Of a stretch of 64,000 nt of DNA, positions 28,556-55,266 are shown piece by piece. The stretch covers positions 310,001 to 374,000 of the forward strand of contig JAFKEU010000005.1 in NCBI GenBank assembly GCA_017308475.1, given 5' to 3'. The position numbers were made by a program, and so were the translations under genes. Source of the stretch: Alphaproteobacteria bacterium. Lineage in GTDB: Bacteria > Pseudomonadota > Alphaproteobacteria > Micropepsales > Micropepsaceae. Below the pieces are notes generated by a model. The model was not told the origin of the DNA. It saw nothing but the letters and a program-made list of their open reading frames with translations, and ran no database searches. Positions within the stretch are counted from its first letter, which is position 1, and each line of letters begins with the position of its first letter.

Positions 28556-28847
28556 GGCAGTCAATTCGCTGCCGATGCCTGGGCGCGCTTGGCCTCGCGT
28601 CCGTCCTTCGTGCGCCGGCATTTGTCAGTGAGATATCCAACACGCCGCCGAGCGTTTCCCATGCGATACTGCCGCCATGACAGACGGGGCACGCACATCC
28701 AATCCCTATCCCCGTTGGACAAAGGGGGGAGGGGTCAGAAAATCGCGAAAACAATTCGCGAAAAACCGATGCGCGCCAGCGCCTTGCGAAGTTGCGCAAT
28801 ATTCGAATGCCGGACAGCCCGGCGCGCCCCTGTCCACAATCCCCGTA
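28556..28847. other. Gene-free stretch inside the repeat island
   Basis: I see no convincing coding frame between chorismate mutase (ends 28254) and the methyltransferase (ends 29055) on either strand. Bases 28583-28610 resemble 22455-22483 next to the end of copy A. A short palindrome, TCGCGAA/TTCGCGA, lies near 28743-28760. The open frames here have no family features. Confidence 0.6.
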
Positions 28848-28952
28848 GTCATGGCCCACTTTACGTGGGCCATCCAGGGCGCCGGAGCCTGTTGCCCTGG
28901 ATGGCCCGGCCACCCGGATCGCTGCGCGACCGTGTGGTGGCCGGGCCATGAC
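28848..28952. repeat. Dispersed palindromic repeat, GTCATGGCCC family, copy 3 (long form)
   Basis: Outer arms GTCATGGCCC and GGGCCATGAC bound a 105-bp unit that can form three hairpins: ATGGCCCAC/GTGGGCCAT, CCAGGGC/GCCCTGG and ATGGCCCGGCCACC/GGTGGCCGGGCCAT. The terminal core is shared with copies 1 and 2, so lengths within the family vary by internal stems. From 28953 to the methyltransferase stop region I see nothing further. Confidence 0.8.
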
Positions 28953-29054
28953 AAATGCGCTGCGGAAAGTGTTCCAGCGCCCGATACTTTTAAGCGGGCA
29001 AGTATCTGGCGATCAGGTCCTGAAACGCCTGTCCCCGCCCCGGTTCGCCCGGCC

Positions 29055-29855
29055 TCAGTTCACCGCCGGCTTCAGGCCGGGCTTGAGCGCGATGCCGATA
29101 TATTTGCCCCCGCTCTCCACCACGCCATGCGAGACGCGCATCTGCTCGACGAAATGGGCGAACGCCATGTTGTCCTGGATGTCGTCCGAGATGAAGAGCC
29201 CGCCGGGCCGGACTGCCCGCCACAGGATCGGGTAGCCGAACTGCCGCCCGCGATAGGTCTTGTCGGAATCATAATGGGCGATGTCCACCCCTTGCGGAAA
29301 GCACGCCGCCGCCTTCACAAGGCCGTTGCGGTCCGGCTCCTGCACGATGGTCCAGTGCGGCACCAGATAGTCGGGCACCGCCAGCCCGACAAAGTCCTCG
29401 CTGCCGTCGCCCGGATAGGGCCGGTCCACGCTGACCAGCCGGCCCCCGCCATTGCACGCCATCGCGCTCAGGAAGGCCAGGCTGCTCCAGCCAAAGGCCA
29501 CGCCCGTCTCCAGCGCCCTGCGCGCGCCCAAAAGCCGCGTGACCGCATAAAGCAGGTCGACATTGGCGGGACCGCCCATGCGGACCGGCGCCCCCGCCAC
29601 CCGGTGGCGCGCATCCACCAGCACATCGGCGGGCAGGCGCGGCAGGATGCCGTCGGGCGTCAGGCCGAAATGCATCAGCACCGCGCCCAGCGGCTGGGCC
29701 CGCGCCCGCGCCCAGCCCATGGCATGGGCCTGGTGCGGCCGCCCGTCCAGGTCGGGCTGCAGATAGCCCAGGGCGCGATGGCCGAAATGCGCCCAGAAGG
29801 GCGGACGGCCCAGATAGAAGGCTGCGCTGCGCAGCTTGTGGGGGATGCTTGTCAT
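29055..29855 (-). CDS. Class I SAM-dependent methyltransferase family protein
   Basis: A 266-residue protein. ALETGVAFGWSSLAFLSAM is a SAM-binding motif I and VDIAHYDSDKTYRGR fits the acidic loop, followed by RAVRPGGLFISDDI. It resembles the Methyltransf_24 group found near polysaccharide and secondary-metabolite genes, but the neighbours here give no clue to the substrate. It lies downstream of the Hpt gene on the same strand with a 126-bp gap. Confidence 0.75.
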   Translation of the reverse strand: MTSIPHKLRSAAFYLGRPPFWAHFGHRALGYLQPDLDGRPHQAHAMGWARARAQPLGAVLMHFGLTPDGILPRLPADVLVDARHRVAGAPVRMGGPANVDLLYAVTRLLGARRALETGVAFGWSSLAFLSAMACNGGGRLVSVDRPYPGDGSEDFVGLAVPDYLVPHWTIVQEPDRNGLVKAAACFPQGVDIAHYDSDKTYRGRQFGYPILWRAVRPGGLFISDDIQDNMAFAHFVEQMRVSHGVVESGGKYIGIALKPGLKPAVN

Positions 29856-29981
29856 GCGCGGAATTTCTATCCGCGCCGCAGGGTCCAGGCGTGTGATATC
29901 GCTGTGATTTCCCCACCGTCCCCCGGCACAACGCCTTGGGGAATATTGCGAAATTGCAATCCTCGGAAGGGCGGGCGGCCC

Positions 29982-30350
29982 CTAGGCCGCCACCAGATAG
30001 CGGGCAATGAACGCCTGCACCGCGTCGCCCTCGCGCATCAGCCGGGCGATGGCGGCCTCGGCCTTGTCGGCCTGCATCACCAGATCGACCGGTTCGGCCG
30101 CCGCTGCCGCCTCGCCCATGCGGAAGGCGCCGACGCCGCGCGCCGCGCCCTTGATGGTGTGGGCGATCTGCTTCCACCGGCTGGCGTCACGCTGGGCCAG
30201 AACGTCCCTCAGGTCCTCGACCATGGCCGTGATCTGGCCATCGAACAGGCGCAGGATCTCCGCATTCAGCATGTGTTCGCCGCCGGTGTAGCGGGCCAGG
30301 TGGCTCAGGTCGATGGCCAGGTCGGAGGAGTGCGTGTCGGTGTCGGTCAT
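29982..30350 (-). CDS. Stand-alone histidine phosphotransfer (Hpt) protein
   Basis: A 122-residue four-helix protein. The phospho-accepting His64 is in AHTIKGAARGVGA, the classic HxxKG box. Such proteins relay phosphate between a hybrid kinase receiver and a response regulator. No kinase or regulator gene adjoins it; the hybrid kinase at 13472-15796 lacks its own Hpt domain and is a possible partner, but that is inference only. Confidence 0.88.
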   Translation of the reverse strand: MTDTDTHSSDLAIDLSHLARYTGGEHMLNAEILRLFDGQITAMVEDLRDVLAQRDASRWKQIAHTIKGAARGVGAFRMGEAAAAAEPVDLVMQADKAEAAIARLMREGDAVQAFIARYLVAA

Positions 30351-30472
30351 GGCGCCATACTGGCCCGGCCACGGCTAAGACCTCGTTAATGCGGGCCTTT
30401 TATAGTGTGAAACGCTCGCATGGTCCGGCGAATGATGTTTAAAATGCCGGGAATCCAAAGGGTCTGAAGGGC

Positions 30473-32890
30473 GTGGTCAGGACATTCGGGCAGAACCAGC
30501 CTGTCTTGGTGGACAAGGCCGAAAGCACGGCCCGCCCTGCCCCTGGTGCGGCTGCGCCGGAAGCCAAGGGTCCTGCAATCCGCATCCGGCCTACCCGCTT
30601 CGGCGCCGTCGCTACCGCCGTGGCCGGCATGGCCAGCCTGTTCTGGGTGGGGGTGTCCGCGGCCTTCCTTTGGGGCTGGCTGGGGCCAAAGGGCCTGGCC
30701 GCGCTCGATCCCGTCCACGCCTCGCTTTTCACCGCCGGCGCCTTGCTGCCGCCCCTGCTGTTCCTGGCCATTGCCGCGGTGCTCGCGCGCAGCGCCGCGA
30801 TGCACGAGGCGACCCGCGCCCTTCTGGTCGCCACCGACCGCCTGTTTGCCGCCGACGAAGCCGCCGCCAGCAACGCCGCCCGGCTGGCCCGCTTCATCCG
30901 GCGCGAGCTGGACGGGTTGAACACCGGGCTGGACGCCGCCGCCCAGCGCATGCGTGCGCTGGAACAGGTGCTGGAAACCCAGATATCCACCCTGGACGAA
31001 GCCGGCGCCCGCGCCGAGGTGCGCGGCCAGGCCATCGCCGCGCGCCTGTCCGAGGAAAGCCAGCGGATGGAGGCGCTGGGCGACGACCTGAACAATGCGG
31101 CATCGCGCGCCAGCCAGACCATCGCCTCCCGCTTGGGCCAGGAAAGCCTGCGGATCGAAGCGATGGGCGACAGCCTGACCGGCGCCGCCGACCGCGCCAG
31201 CCAGACCATCGTCGCGCGCCTGTCAGAGGAAAGTCAGCGGATCGAAGCACTGGGCGACAGCCTGACTGCCGCCGCAACCCGCGCCAGCCAGATCATTGCC
31301 GCCCGGCTGGCCGAGGAAAGCCAGCGGGTGGAAGCAATGGGCGACAGCCTGACCGGCGCCGCCGCCCGCGCCGGCGAGGCCATTGCCGCGCGCCTGGCCC
31401 AGGAAAACCAGCGCGTCGCAGCGCTGGGTGACGGTCTGGCCGGGGCCGCCACCCGCGCCAGCGAGACGATCGCCGGCCGCGCCGCGCAGCTGAAGTCGAT
31501 GATGGAAGCGGCGGAAGGCACCCTGAAGATGGCGACCCAGTCACTGGATGTGCAGGCCGCCGGGTTCCGCGCTGCGGTCACCGCCGCGACCGATGCGCCG
31601 CGCGAAGCCGCCGTCGAACTGGACCGCCAGGCCACGCGGATCGGGGAAATGGCCGACAGCGCCGCATCGCGCGCCGAATTCGTGCTGGCGCGGCAGGAAA
31701 AACAGCGCACCCAGCTTTCCGAGCTGATGCAGAAGCTGGAACAGGAAGGCGAGCGGCTGGACAATGCCCTTTCCCAGCAGCGCCGCGGTCTGGAACAGGC
31801 GGTGGAGGCACTGGCCGCCGAAGCCCGCAAATGCGAGGTGGTAACCACCGACGCCGACTTGCATCTGGAACACCTGATGGTCAGCGCAGCCACCCGCGCC
31901 GAAACGCTGACCGGCGTCTTCGCACGCGAGGCCGAACGGCTGAAGGATGCCGGCGATGCCGCCGCCGCGGTGCTGGCGCAGCTGTCGGCGGCACTGAAGG
32001 AAGCGGGCACCGGCGCCCAGACCCTGATCGGTGAAAGTGCAGCCCAGGCCAGGCAGGACGCGCGGCTTCTGGTGGGCGAGGCGATGGGCGAATGCGAACG
32101 GCTGCTGCGCACCGCCGGCGAGATGGGCGCCGAAGCCGGCAGGATCCGCGGCATCCTGGGCAAGACCACCGAAGACCTTGAGCGCCACATCATCCGCCTG
32201 CCGGGCCTGGCCCAGGAAGAGGCACGCCGCGTGCGCGAGATGATCGCCGGCGAGACCGAACAGCTTCTGAACATATCGGCGCGCGCCATGTCCACCCTGC
32301 ACGCCCGCTCCGGCAACAAGCCGCTGCCGATCCCTCAGGCGAGCCCCGAAGTCGAAACCGAAGCCGCGCCCAGGTCCGAACCGGAAAGCGAAGGCCTGAA
32401 GGGCCTGGCCCGCAAGCTGACCGCGCGCCAGAAGCGCGAGCCCAGGGAAAGCAAGACCTGGGACATGAAGACCCTGCTGGCCGCCGCCGAACAGGGCGAC
32501 GGCGACATGCGGCTGAAAGCCGGCGGCGCCCAGGCCGTCTCGCTGGCGGCGCTGGAGGCCGCGCTTGCCGACCTGGCGATCGACCTGTCAAAGCTGGACG
32601 AACAGTCTCCCGGCACGATGGAATGGAAACAGTATCTGATGGGCGACCGCAGCGTGTTCGCGCGCCGCCTGGCCGGCACCATCGACGCCGAGGCGGTGGA
32701 CCGCATCACCGGCCTCTATCGCGACGACAAGGTGTTCCACGATGCCGCCGACGCCTATATCAGCGAGTTCGAGATGCTGCTGGACAGGGCGCGGGAAGGC
32801 GATGGCGGCGGCCTTCTGACCTCGACGCTGCTCTCCGCCGACACCGGCAAGGTGTATCTGGCCATCGCCTATGCCCTGGGGCGTCTGTGA
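30473..32890 (+). CDS. Long coiled-coil inner-membrane protein with 29-residue repeats (TipN-like architecture)
   Basis: 805 residues. A basic N-terminus precedes two membrane helices (about 45-69 and 83-105), then a long Ala/Glu/Arg-rich coiled coil (about 115-600) and a conserved-looking C-terminal domain (about 660-805, MEWKQYLMGDRSVFARRL). Residues 191-335 are five tandem 29-residue units. This layout resembles the Caulobacter polarity factor TipN, which is my best guess, not an assignment. The GTG at 30473 follows GAAGG. Its 3' end is overlapped by rsmB on the other strand. Confidence 0.75.
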   Translation: MVRTFGQNQPVLVDKAESTARPAPGAAAPEAKGPAIRIRPTRFGAVATAVAGMASLFWVGVSAAFLWGWLGPKGLAALDPVHASLFTAGALLPPLLFLAIAAVLARSAAMHEATRALLVATDRLFAADEAAASNAARLARFIRRELDGLNTGLDAAAQRMRALEQVLETQISTLDEAGARAEVRGQAIAARLSEESQRMEALGDDLNNAASRASQTIASRLGQESLRIEAMGDSLTGAADRASQTIVARLSEESQRIEALGDSLTAAATRASQIIAARLAEESQRVEAMGDSLTGAAARAGEAIAARLAQENQRVAALGDGLAGAATRASETIAGRAAQLKSMMEAAEGTLKMATQSLDVQAAGFRAAVTAATDAPREAAVELDRQATRIGEMADSAASRAEFVLARQEKQRTQLSELMQKLEQEGERLDNALSQQRRGLEQAVEALAAEARKCEVVTTDADLHLEHLMVSAATRAETLTGVFAREAERLKDAGDAAAAVLAQLSAALKEAGTGAQTLIGESAAQARQDARLLVGEAMGECERLLRTAGEMGAEAGRIRGILGKTTEDLERHIIRLPGLAQEEARRVREMIAGETEQLLNISARAMSTLHARSGNKPLPIPQASPEVETEAAPRSEPESEGLKGLARKLTARQKREPRESKTWDMKTLLAAAEQGDGDMRLKAGGAQAVSLAALEAALADLAIDLSKLDEQSPGTMEWKQYLMGDRSVFARRLAGTIDAEAVDRITGLYRDDKVFHDAADAYISEFEMLLDRAREGDGGGLLTSTLLSADTGKVYLAIAYALGRL
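31043..31477 (+). repeat. Five tandem 87-bp coding repeats
   Basis: Units start at 31043, 31130, 31217, 31304 and 31391. Each encodes a variant of RLSEESQRIEALGDSLTAAA followed by TRASQIIAA. The copies have diverged by substitutions but keep exact length, so the reading frame and helical register are maintained. Confidence 0.9.
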
Positions 32891-34153
32891 TCTTTTCAGC
32901 CGCGCGGCATAGAAGCCGTCCATGCCGCCAAGATGAAACGGCAAGGTACGCAGATCACCGTCGGGCGTGATCCATTCGCCGTGGCCAAACACGTCGTCAG
33001 ATGACAGCGGCGCGCGGGAAAATTCGGGATGCGCCGACAGGAATGCGGCGATCTGTTCCTCGCCTTCCTCGCGCTCCAGCGAACAGACTGCAAAGACCAG
33101 TGTTCCACCGGGCTCGACCATCGCCGCGCCCGCCTCCAGAATCTCATAGGCCATCGCGCTCGCATGGGTGACATCGCCGGCCTGCTTGATCCAGGGCAGG
33201 TCAGGATGGCGGCGGATGGTACCGGTGGCGGTACATGGCGCATCCACCAGCACCAGCGGCGCGGTCAGCTGCACCTCCCGCGCATCACCCTCCACGATGG
33301 TGGCGCAAAGACCCGTGCGGGCCAGATTCTCCCGGATGCGCCCCGCCCGCACCGGATCGATCTCCACCGCTGTCACCAGGGCCCCCGCCGCGGCAAGCTG
33401 CATGGTCTTGCCGCCCGGCGCCGCACACAGGTCGATGACGCGCCTTCCACGCACATCGCCCAGCAGATTTGCCGGAAGCGTGGCGGCCGCGTCCTGCACC
33501 CACCAGTCCCCTTCCGCGAAGCCCGCCATCGCCTCGATCCGCCCGCCAGCCTTCAGCCGCCGCACCCGCCCGAACAGCCCATCGCTCTCTGGAAAGGATG
33601 CGGCATCGGCTTTCAGGACAATATCGGTCGGCGCCTCGTTCAGATGCGCTTGGGCAATCCTGCGCGCCGTCTCCCCGTCGTATTGCTCGCGCCAGCGGCC
33701 CCATAGCCAGTCCGGCACCGACAGCCGCACCCAGTCCAACCCTACCAGAACATCAACGCCCTCGCGCGCGATCCGGCGAAGCACCGCGTTGATCAGCGGC
33801 TTGAAATGCACCGCCTTTTTGTCCTTGGCCGCCAGCGCGTTGGCGCCATTGACCGCGGCATGGTCGGCGGTCCTCAGCACAAGAAGCTCGCAGGCGCCCA
33901 GCAGCAATATCTCACTGGCAGGTCCGGCCTTGTGCGGCGGCGGTGGCTTGGGCACGAAATGGCGCACCACCGCATCAAGCACACCCAGATGGCGCAGCGT
34001 CTGGCTGACCAGCGCGCGGGCAAAGCCGGCATCGCGGGTCGCCAGTCCCTCCAGTGAATCCAGCTGATGGTCCAGACTGCGTCCCCGGCCCAGCACGCCG
34101 GAAAGCATGGCCAGCGCTGCCTGGCGGGCAGCAAGTCCGGGTGCATCACTCAT
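32588..34153 (-). CDS. rsmB: 16S rRNA (cytosine967-C5)-methyltransferase RsmB with antisense C-terminal extension
   Basis: 521 residues. An N-terminal NusB-like RNA-binding domain (about 1-140) is followed by a class I methyltransferase domain: DLCAAPGGKTMQLAAAG binds SAM, VDAPCTATGTIRRHPDLPW contains a catalytic cysteine and VFAVCSLEREEGEEQI the second. Family proteins usually end soon after the MDGFYAARLKR segment. Here the frame stays open about 100 more residues, entirely antisense to the 3' end of the coiled-coil gene. The tail has no recognisable domain. Confidence 0.9.
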   Translation of the reverse strand: MSDAPGLAARQAALAMLSGVLGRGRSLDHQLDSLEGLATRDAGFARALVSQTLRHLGVLDAVVRHFVPKPPPPHKAGPASEILLLGACELLVLRTADHAAVNGANALAAKDKKAVHFKPLINAVLRRIAREGVDVLVGLDWVRLSVPDWLWGRWREQYDGETARRIAQAHLNEAPTDIVLKADAASFPESDGLFGRVRRLKAGGRIEAMAGFAEGDWWVQDAAATLPANLLGDVRGRRVIDLCAAPGGKTMQLAAAGALVTAVEIDPVRAGRIRENLARTGLCATIVEGDAREVQLTAPLVLVDAPCTATGTIRRHPDLPWIKQAGDVTHASAMAYEILEAGAAMVEPGGTLVFAVCSLEREEGEEQIAAFLSAHPEFSRAPLSSDDVFGHGEWITPDGDLRTLPFHLGGMDGFYAARLKRSQTPQGIGDGQIHLAGVGGEQRRGQKAAAIAFPRPVQQHLELADIGVGGIVEHLVVAIEAGDAVHRLGVDGAGQAAREHAAVAHQILFPFHRAGRLFVQL

Positions 34154-53544: not shown

Positions 53545-54048
53545 ATGGACCTGATCGTGACGGAAGACAACGGCCAGGCCTTCCTGGACTGGGGCGCGGG
53601 CAAACGCCGCTGCGCCGTGGGCAGGGCCGGCATCGGCGACAAGCGCGGCGAAGGCGACAACATCACCCCGCGCGGCGCCTGGCCGCTGCGCGGGCTTTTC
53701 TATCGCGCCGACCGTATCGCAGCGCCACAATGCATCTTCACGCCCGCGGCCCTTCGCCCCAATGACGGGTGGTGCGACGCGCCCGGCGATCCCAATTACA
53801 ACCGGCTGGTCAGCCTGCCTTACGCCGCCAGTCACGAAGCCATGTGGCGCTTCGACCATCTCTACGACCTGGTGCTGGTGATCGGCTACAACGACGATCC
53901 GGTGGTGCCCGGCAAGGGCAGCGCCATCTTCCTGCATCTGGCGCGGCCCGATTTTGCGCCCACCGAAGGCTGCGTGGCGGTCACGCTGGGCGACGCGCTG
54001 GCGGCGCTGGCGCAGCTTGGCGAAGGCGACCGGATCAGGATCGGCTAG
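53545..54048 (+). CDS. L,D-transpeptidase (YkuD) family protein
   Basis: A 167-residue catalytic domain. The active cysteine is in IFLHLARPDFAPTEGCVAV, the H-to-C spacing typical of YkuD enzymes, and NITPRGAWPLRGLFYRAD matches the N-terminal half. There is no visible signal peptide, so it either uses a different route or acts in the cytoplasm on recycled material. Its end overlaps yggS by 4 bp (convergent). Confidence 0.85.
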   Translation: MDLIVTEDNGQAFLDWGAGKRRCAVGRAGIGDKRGEGDNITPRGAWPLRGLFYRADRIAAPQCIFTPAALRPNDGWCDAPGDPNYNRLVSLPYAASHEAMWRFDHLYDLVLVIGYNDDPVVPGKGSAIFLHLARPDFAPTEGCVAVTLGDALAALAQLGEGDRIRIG

Positions 54049-54713
54049 GCGGATGGTCGCGCGCCGAAGATGGCGCTTCCCACCCGTACGTGAGTCGCCC
54101 CGAATTTTACCGCCAGCTCGAAATCTCCGCTCATGCCCATGCTGAGGAAGGGCAGGCCATGCTCATCGGCCAGCTTCTTCAGCAGCGCGAAATGCGGCGC
54201 TGCATCGTCCTCCACCGGCGGGATGCACATCAGCCCTTCCACCGGCAGTTTCAGAATGTCGCGGGCATAGTGGATCAATTCGCCCGCCTCCCGCGGAAGC
54301 ACGCCCGCCTTCTGCGGCTCCTCGCCGGTGTTGACCTGCACGAACAGGCGCGGCACCTTGCCCCCGCGCGCCCTTTCGGCGGCGATGGCGTCGGCCAGCC
54401 GAATGCGGTCCAGCGTCTGGATGCAATCGAACAGCGCCACAGCCTCGCGCACCTTGTTGGTCTGCAAGGGGCCGATCAGATGCAGTTCGATGCCGGGGAA
54501 TTCCGCTTTCAGGGCGGGGAATTTCGCTTGCGCCTCCTGCACCCGGTTCTCGCCGAACAGAAGCTGGCCCGCGGCGATGGCCTCGCGCACCCCCACTTCG
54601 GGCACGGTCTTGCTGACCGCCACCAGATGGGTCGCTGGCGCCGGATTGACGGCGGCCTTCCGCGCCGCATCGATGCGCGCCACAATGGCCTGAAGATTTT
54701 CCGCGATGGTCAT
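54045..54713 (-). CDS. PLP homeostasis protein (YggS/PLPBP)
   Basis: A 222-residue single-domain TIM barrel. The PLP-binding Lys is in LVAVSKTVP, followed by FGENRVQEAQAKF, LHLIGPLQTNKVREA and LSMGMSGDFELAVKFGATHVRVGSAIFG. It buffers free pyridoxal phosphate. The open frame starts at 54896 but ATG 54713 is the family start. It faces the thiE-like gene with overlapping start codons. Confidence 0.94.
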   Translation of the reverse strand: MTIAENLQAIVARIDAARKAAVNPAPATHLVAVSKTVPEVGVREAIAAGQLLFGENRVQEAQAKFPALKAEFPGIELHLIGPLQTNKVREAVALFDCIQTLDRIRLADAIAAERARGGKVPRLFVQVNTGEEPQKAGVLPREAGELIHYARDILKLPVEGLMCIPPVEDDAAPHFALLKKLADEHGLPFLSMGMSGDFELAVKFGATHVRVGSAIFGARPSA

Positions 54714-55266
54714 GGGCTTATCCCTAGCAAGACAGCAGCAGCGCCTCAACGCGGCTTTTCCCCTGGTGATGTTCACCGATGAGCGCAGGGCCGACTGGGT
54801 CGGCGCGGCATGCCGCCTGCCGCCGGGCAGCCTGGTGGTGGTGCGTGGGCGCAGCGCGGGGGAACGCGCCGCGCTGGCCGAGGCCCTGTGCGGCATCGCC
54901 CCGCTGCTGATCGCGGGGGATGAAAGGCTGGCGGCGCGCGTCGGGGCCGCGGGGCTTCACCTGCCGCAGGCGCGCATGGCAGAGGCGATGCACTGGCGCG
55001 CGCGCCATCCAGGCTGGATCATCACCGCATCCGTCCATTCGCTGGGCGCGATGGCACGGGCGCGCGAAGTCGACGCTTTGTTCCTCTCGCCGGTCTTTCC
55101 CACCGCCAGCCATCCGGGTGCGCCATCGCTTGGTGCCGCGCGAGCAGCCTTCATCGCCGCGGCCGCGCCGGCGCCGGTCTATGCCCTGGGCGGCGTGACG
55201 GCACGGAACGCGGCGCTGCTGGCGCCATCGTTCAGCGGCATCGCCGCGATTGGTGCCCTATTGTGA
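54706..55266 (+). CDS. Thiamine phosphate synthase/TenI-like protein
   Basis: A 186-residue TIM-barrel relative of ThiE/TenI. FPLVMFTDERRAD, LIAGDERLAARVGAAGLHLPQ, SVHSLGAMARAREVDALFLSPVFPT and ALGGVTARNAALL match, but it is slightly short, and whether it is a true synthase is unclear. Its start lies inside the divergent yggS start (ATG 54706 or 54712). Its 3' end overlaps the porin-like gene by 9 bp. Confidence 0.8.
   Translation: MVMGLSLARQQQRLNAAFPLVMFTDERRADWVGAACRLPPGSLVVVRGRSAGERAALAEALCGIAPLLIAGDERLAARVGAAGLHLPQARMAEAMHWRARHPGWIITASVHSLGAMARAREVDALFLSPVFPTASHPGAPSLGAARAAFIAAAAPAPVYALGGVTARNAALLAPSFSGIAAIGALL

Follow-up and report, generated by a model that had tools for sequence, protein, structure and literature searches.

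Probable loss of the rsmB stop codon and a 303-nt antisense overlap with a convergent gene in a bacterium of the Micropepsaceae

Stop-codon loss and convergent gene overlap

Loss of a stop codon by point mutation, like frameshift, is named as a source of long gene overlaps in passages of Palleja et al. (2008, PMC2478687), where 124 of 178 convergent overlaps longer than 60 bp are classed as 3′-end extensions, and passages of another paper (PMC4161906) argue that convergent overlaps arise when stop codons shift position. C-terminal extensions that arise by stop loss are described in passages of Andreatta et al. (2015, PMC4494051), which also cite 13 bacterial cases of 3′-UTR incorporation from Vakhrusheva et al. 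(2011). The relative phase of the two frames has been surveyed as well, and in the figures given in PMC2174442 phase 123:321 makes up 33% of 1218 convergent overlaps of at least 5 nt.

We analysed a window of 64,000 nt (assembly GCA_017308475.1, contig JAFKEU010000005.1, positions 310,001 to 374,000; all coordinates below are those of the window unless a locus is named), in which the open frame of rsmB runs deep into the antisense strand of a convergent gene. As in the cases of PMC2478687, one of the two convergent genes extends further 3′ than its orthologues do. The cases in the passages of that paper are mostly regarded as misannotations, whereas here both genes are conserved, the stop is present in relatives and the partner-gene codon opposite that stop can be named. 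The resemblance to the extensions in the passages of Andreatta et al. (PMC4494051) is that loss of a stop codon joins downstream sequence to a C-terminus; there the extension derives from the 3′-UTR and remains polymorphic in yeast and fly, while in the present locus it is antisense to a coding gene and is found in one genome. The overlap has the codon-for-codon antisense phase, the 123:321 of PMC2174442, a survey whose passages deal with phases and not with single cases of this kind. A literature search of titles and abstract openings found no description of this rsmB case, which by comparison with relatives appears to be one more of the known stop-loss kind, with the responsible codon identified.

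The two overlapping genes

The rsmB open frame (32588-34153, minus strand; 521 codons plus stop in the list of open reading frames) encodes a protein with a NusB domain (PF01029, residues 8-130, E = 5e-17) and an RsmB/F methyltransferase domain (PF01189, residues 234-420, E = 1.2e-39). Its best NCBIfam matches are RsmB models, all of them under their curated cut-offs (258.8 bits against 375 for PRK10901, 216.8 against 319 for PRK14902 and 204.9 against 269.05 for TIGR00563). Judged by domain content and best-scoring models, the gene appears to be that of RsmB, the 16S rRNA (cytosine(967)-C5)-methyltransferase. The Pfam RsmB/F model stops at residue 420 and the NCBIfam RsmB models at residues 421-422, in ...MDGFYAARLKRS, which agrees with the preliminary description of this DNA, where RsmB conservation was said to end at about 32890. 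C307 (in DAPC) and C357 (in VCS), which we take to be the two catalytic cysteines of RsmB, are invariant across 44 aligned RsmB sequences, so that the catalytic part of the enzyme looks intact. Both cysteines lie within residues 1-425 (32879-34153, minus strand), the part that corresponds to a normal RsmB in the comparison with relatives. The genome also has a second RsmB/F-like gene (L002, G000:C1:184192-185124), which is 36% identical over residues 134-423.

The convergent gene (30473-32890, plus strand) has a GTG start and encodes a coiled-coil protein of 805 amino acids ending in ...IAYALGRL, for which neither Pfam nor NCBIfam gave a match at E 0.001. The C-terminus, ...LSADTGK.YLAIAYALGRL, is strongly conserved within the genus, and in a comparison of the C-terminal part only, made across 65 relatives, 46 have exactly the LGRL end of the window and 19 have one or two extra residues. 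The partner appears from this conservation to be a real gene with a normal end.

The rsmB frame is open to 32588, as had been described, and overlaps the convergent frame by 303 nt in codon-for-codon antisense, covering the last 101 codons of the convergent gene, stop included. The part beyond the normal-RsmB equivalent is a 96-residue tail (residues 426-521; 32591-32878, minus strand), which by its composition, Pfam and PDB searches and structure model appears to be a shadow of the opposite gene. It ends at a new TGA stop (32588-32590, minus strand) that lies opposite a Ser TCA, codon 706 of the convergent gene.

RsmB ends in relatives and the probable stop loss

A comparison of rsmB ends in sister species, which had been proposed as a check, shows how unusual this end is. 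The distance from the conserved DGF to the stop is 8-14 residues in 81 of the 82 RsmB ends of the family that were read, and 107 residues in the window. In the named loci (the best 80 of 259), the stop comes 7-17 residues past the anchor in all 79 in which the anchor was found; in the remaining one, L050, the printed stretch also stops normally. The tail was found in no other RsmB end among the 82 family ends and the 79 anchored named loci. Eight of the named loci (L032-L039) are the same DNA as eight family loci, the duplicate check having covered these and not the other 72 of the 80. The 82 ends come from 96 family genomes, with 66 of the 69 genomes of the genus represented, the window included; five genomes gave no RsmB end (G054, G067, G098 and G100, with weak paralogue-like matches, and G051, matching in the tail region alone), and nine stand outside the count (G086, G093-G097, G099, G102 and G111). 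One congener locus (L128, from G041) is the same DNA as Rhizomicrobium electricum DSM 21034, which NCBI places in the Micropepsaceae, Alphaproteobacteria. It is the missing normal stop, seen in one of 82 ends, and not the openness of the frame, that is the unusual feature.

The junction between the two genes was measured in 64 relatives, with an overlap of 4-25 nt in 30 and a spacer in 34. Where the overlap has the phase of the window (27 relatives), the RsmB stop lies antisense to a terminal Leu (CTA or TTA) or Ser (TCA) codon of the convergent gene: CTA or TTA lies opposite the stop in all five with a 15-nt overlap and in 19 of the 22 with overlaps of 6-12 nt, the other three having Ser TCA. 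We considered the rare Leu codon opposite the RsmB stop as independent evidence and rejected it, since it follows from the position of the stop itself. The informative points are the identity of the residue, since Leu can lose the stop silently, and the retention of the rare codon in four clade members whose junction is spaced or unmeasured.

Five relatives (G063, G074, G018, G080 and G084) align without gaps to the junction of the window and have their RsmB stop at the codon that matches 32876-32878, TAG in three and TAA in two, where the window has CAG on the minus strand. Read on the plus strand, the same positions are Leu CTG in the window and Leu CTA or TTA in the five, so that one silent transition in the convergent gene suffices to turn TAG into the state of the window. 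These observations, together with the 81 ends that stop 8-14 residues past DGF, support the earlier suggestion that a normal stop had been lost. The genomes compared do not show that the loss was recent, the nearest relatives with most of RsmB being about 74% identical (a fragment from G084 reaches 83% over its part).

We consider it likely, from these comparisons, that the stop was lost in one lineage, adding a functionless 96-residue shadow tail to an intact enzyme. A silent change of Leu CTA to CTG in the convergent gene (A to G at 32878) would have turned the RsmB stop from TAG to CAG (Gln), and translation would then continue along the antisense strand of the convergent gene as far as the TGA that Ser TCA provides at 32588-32590. 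The outcome would be an otherwise intact RsmB carrying 96 residues without evolved function. In gene bodies CTA and TTA make up 27 of 2276 Leu codons (1.2%), and CTG is the commonest (1236 of 2276). An RsmB stop opposite Leu obliges the convergent gene to use one of these two rare codons; a silent change to CTG erases the stop, and GC-rich codon usage then keeps the frame open for about 100 codons. The locus illustrates clearly how a deep overlap of convergent genes can come about in one step.

The codon at 32876-32878 differs by a single base from the TAG that three relatives have, and the long frame occurs in a single genome among the 82 family ends, as would also be expected if the true genome had a normal stop and one base had been miscalled in sequencing or assembly. 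The passages of PMC2478687, moreover, treat as misannotations the 3′-end extensions to which 124 of 178 convergent overlaps longer than 60 bp are assigned. Against such an error, which we regard as quite improbable, the figures of the 3.45 Mb assembly are good (18 contigs, completeness 100, contamination 0.08), and a real silent change to the commonest Leu codon is an easy path.

A second candidate for the lost stop, at 32885-32887 (minus strand), faces the final Leu codon of the convergent gene. It too reads CAG in the window, and three clade members with a 6-nt overlap (G009, G014 and G049) have their RsmB stop, TAG or TAA, at the equivalent codon. In these three the convergent gene stops with TAG or TAA, whereas the window and the five gap-free relatives share a convergent TGA, and hence Ser422 in RsmB, which favours 32876-32878. 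The favoured site lies just outside the interval 32880-32900 that had been singled out for resequencing, and the second candidate lies inside it.

The position of the window in the RsmB tree (80 of the 82 rows, two fragments being omitted) has a bearing on the ancestral junction. The nearest row to the window is G017, the separating branches measuring 0.30 and 0.68 changes per column, and its two genes do not overlap but are separated by a 29-nt spacer. This spacer, and the spacing seen in 34 of 64 measured relatives, would suit an indel by which an RsmB end that had once been spaced became fused to the antisense frame, with no substitution in the stop codon. We find this improbable, as the junction of the window aligns without gaps to those of the five relatives and shares with them the convergent TGA opposite Ser422. 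The stop may instead have been lost at 32885-32887 or by way of an indel; the substitution at 32876-32878 is the course that we prefer. Within the 26-row clade of the window, the rare CTA or TTA is also found at the same Leu in G077, G075 and G076, with spacers of 125-145 nt, and in G078, whose junction was unmeasured; the rare codon in these four members is consistent with an overlapping ancestor. Because the nearest row, G017, is spaced by 29 nt, this ancestral junction is one that we infer.

The spacers of G077 (L116:2779-2903) and G075 (L117), 125 and 145 nt long, begin with identical sequence, a 16-base piece of which has exact matches in only 2 of 169 loci. The identical opening suggests an insertion or repeat common to both, which may have parted a once-overlapping pair. 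The same spacer opening does not occur in the window above chance (2 matches with at most 3 mismatches, 2.1 expected). In G046, G082, G065, G012, G081 and G089 the distance from rsmB to the convergent gene is 822-1561 nt. As for other elements at the junction of the window, no promoter or terminator was found in 32300-33200, and Rfam gave no match at gathering thresholds within the window; one imperfect palindrome lies at 32892-32915.

The open antisense frame and the tail

In this phase, antisense stops arise only from TTA, CTA and TCA codons of the convergent gene. Together these make up 99 of 19,798 codons in convergent genes (about 0.5%), a cautious count that takes at most the last 320 codons per gene and includes the codons opposite RsmB stops, and they give a mean open run of 200 codons. 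The probability that 96 antisense codons are open is then 0.62. In agreement with this, the antisense frame stays open for at least 100 codons past the junction in 17 of the 27 phase-0 short-overlap relatives whose RsmB has stopped, and in 47 of 64 overall (the first five codons being skipped, and runs that meet the end of the locus taken at their cut length). Within the window itself, antisense stops are missing from the last 100 or more codons of 38 out of 46 presumptive genes, a heuristic set chosen by a GC3 rule in which rsmB is absent. The length of the frame is explained by the great rarity, in a GC-rich genome such as this, of codons that produce an antisense stop in the phase concerned. 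On these figures we rejected the idea that the openness reflects selection.

The tail has no match at E 1 either in Pfam or among PDB chains. It lacks Ser, Thr, Cys, Met, Asn, Trp and Tyr, and compared with the RsmB part it is enriched in Gly, Gln and His, the composition that the preliminary description had pointed out. In an AlphaFold2 model built with 44 aligned sequences, including the proteins of 43 of 68 relatives, pLDDT averaged in ten-residue blocks is 84-98 for residues 11-420 (mostly above 90) and 26-60 for residues 431-521. The low values in the tail are weak evidence, as any segment to which the alignment contributes no relatives is expected to score low. The earlier view of the tail as a shadow frame rather than an evolved domain thus accords with the openness expected by chance, with the absence of Pfam and PDB matches and, weakly, with the pLDDT.

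Translated in the same frame, congeners show a likeness to the tail, which is present even where a stop precedes it, and this likeness appears to be the antisense mirror image of the convergent protein. Codon identity in the overlap and upstream of it is 0.75 and 0.65 for G063, 0.66 and 0.60 for G074, 0.55 and 0.67 for G080, and 0.57 and 0.69 for G018, with no consistent shift between the two regions among these relatives, all of which are without the tail. The locus gives reason for caution in general, since a long tail with same-frame likeness across species need not be a domain and may mirror the gene on the opposite strand.

Since the frame is open, an rsmB mRNA of sufficient length would lead to translation of the tail, and parts of the tail are modelled as helices by AlphaFold2; both points speak for a functional new C-terminal segment created by overprinting, as had been suggested. 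The comparison lends this no support: the segment is absent from every relative compared, and its lack of database matches, its chance-level openness, its pLDDT and a likeness in congeners that continues past stops all speak against it. We consider a functional segment very improbable, and give the same small weight to the more specific case in which the tail is translated and already serves RsmB, for example in RNA binding, in ribosome binding or in setting stability. If that were true, one silent change in a neighbouring gene would have created an antisense-encoded protein segment in a single step. Most likely, the extended RsmB is a harmless accident of one base change and not a new domain.

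Two other places in the window show long antisense frames or convergent overlap. At 28677-30389 (plus strand) there is a 570-codon open frame antisense to likely minus-strand genes at 29055-29855 and 29982-30350, and a further convergent pair in the heuristic gene set, at 53545-54048 and 54045-54896, overlaps by 4 nt.
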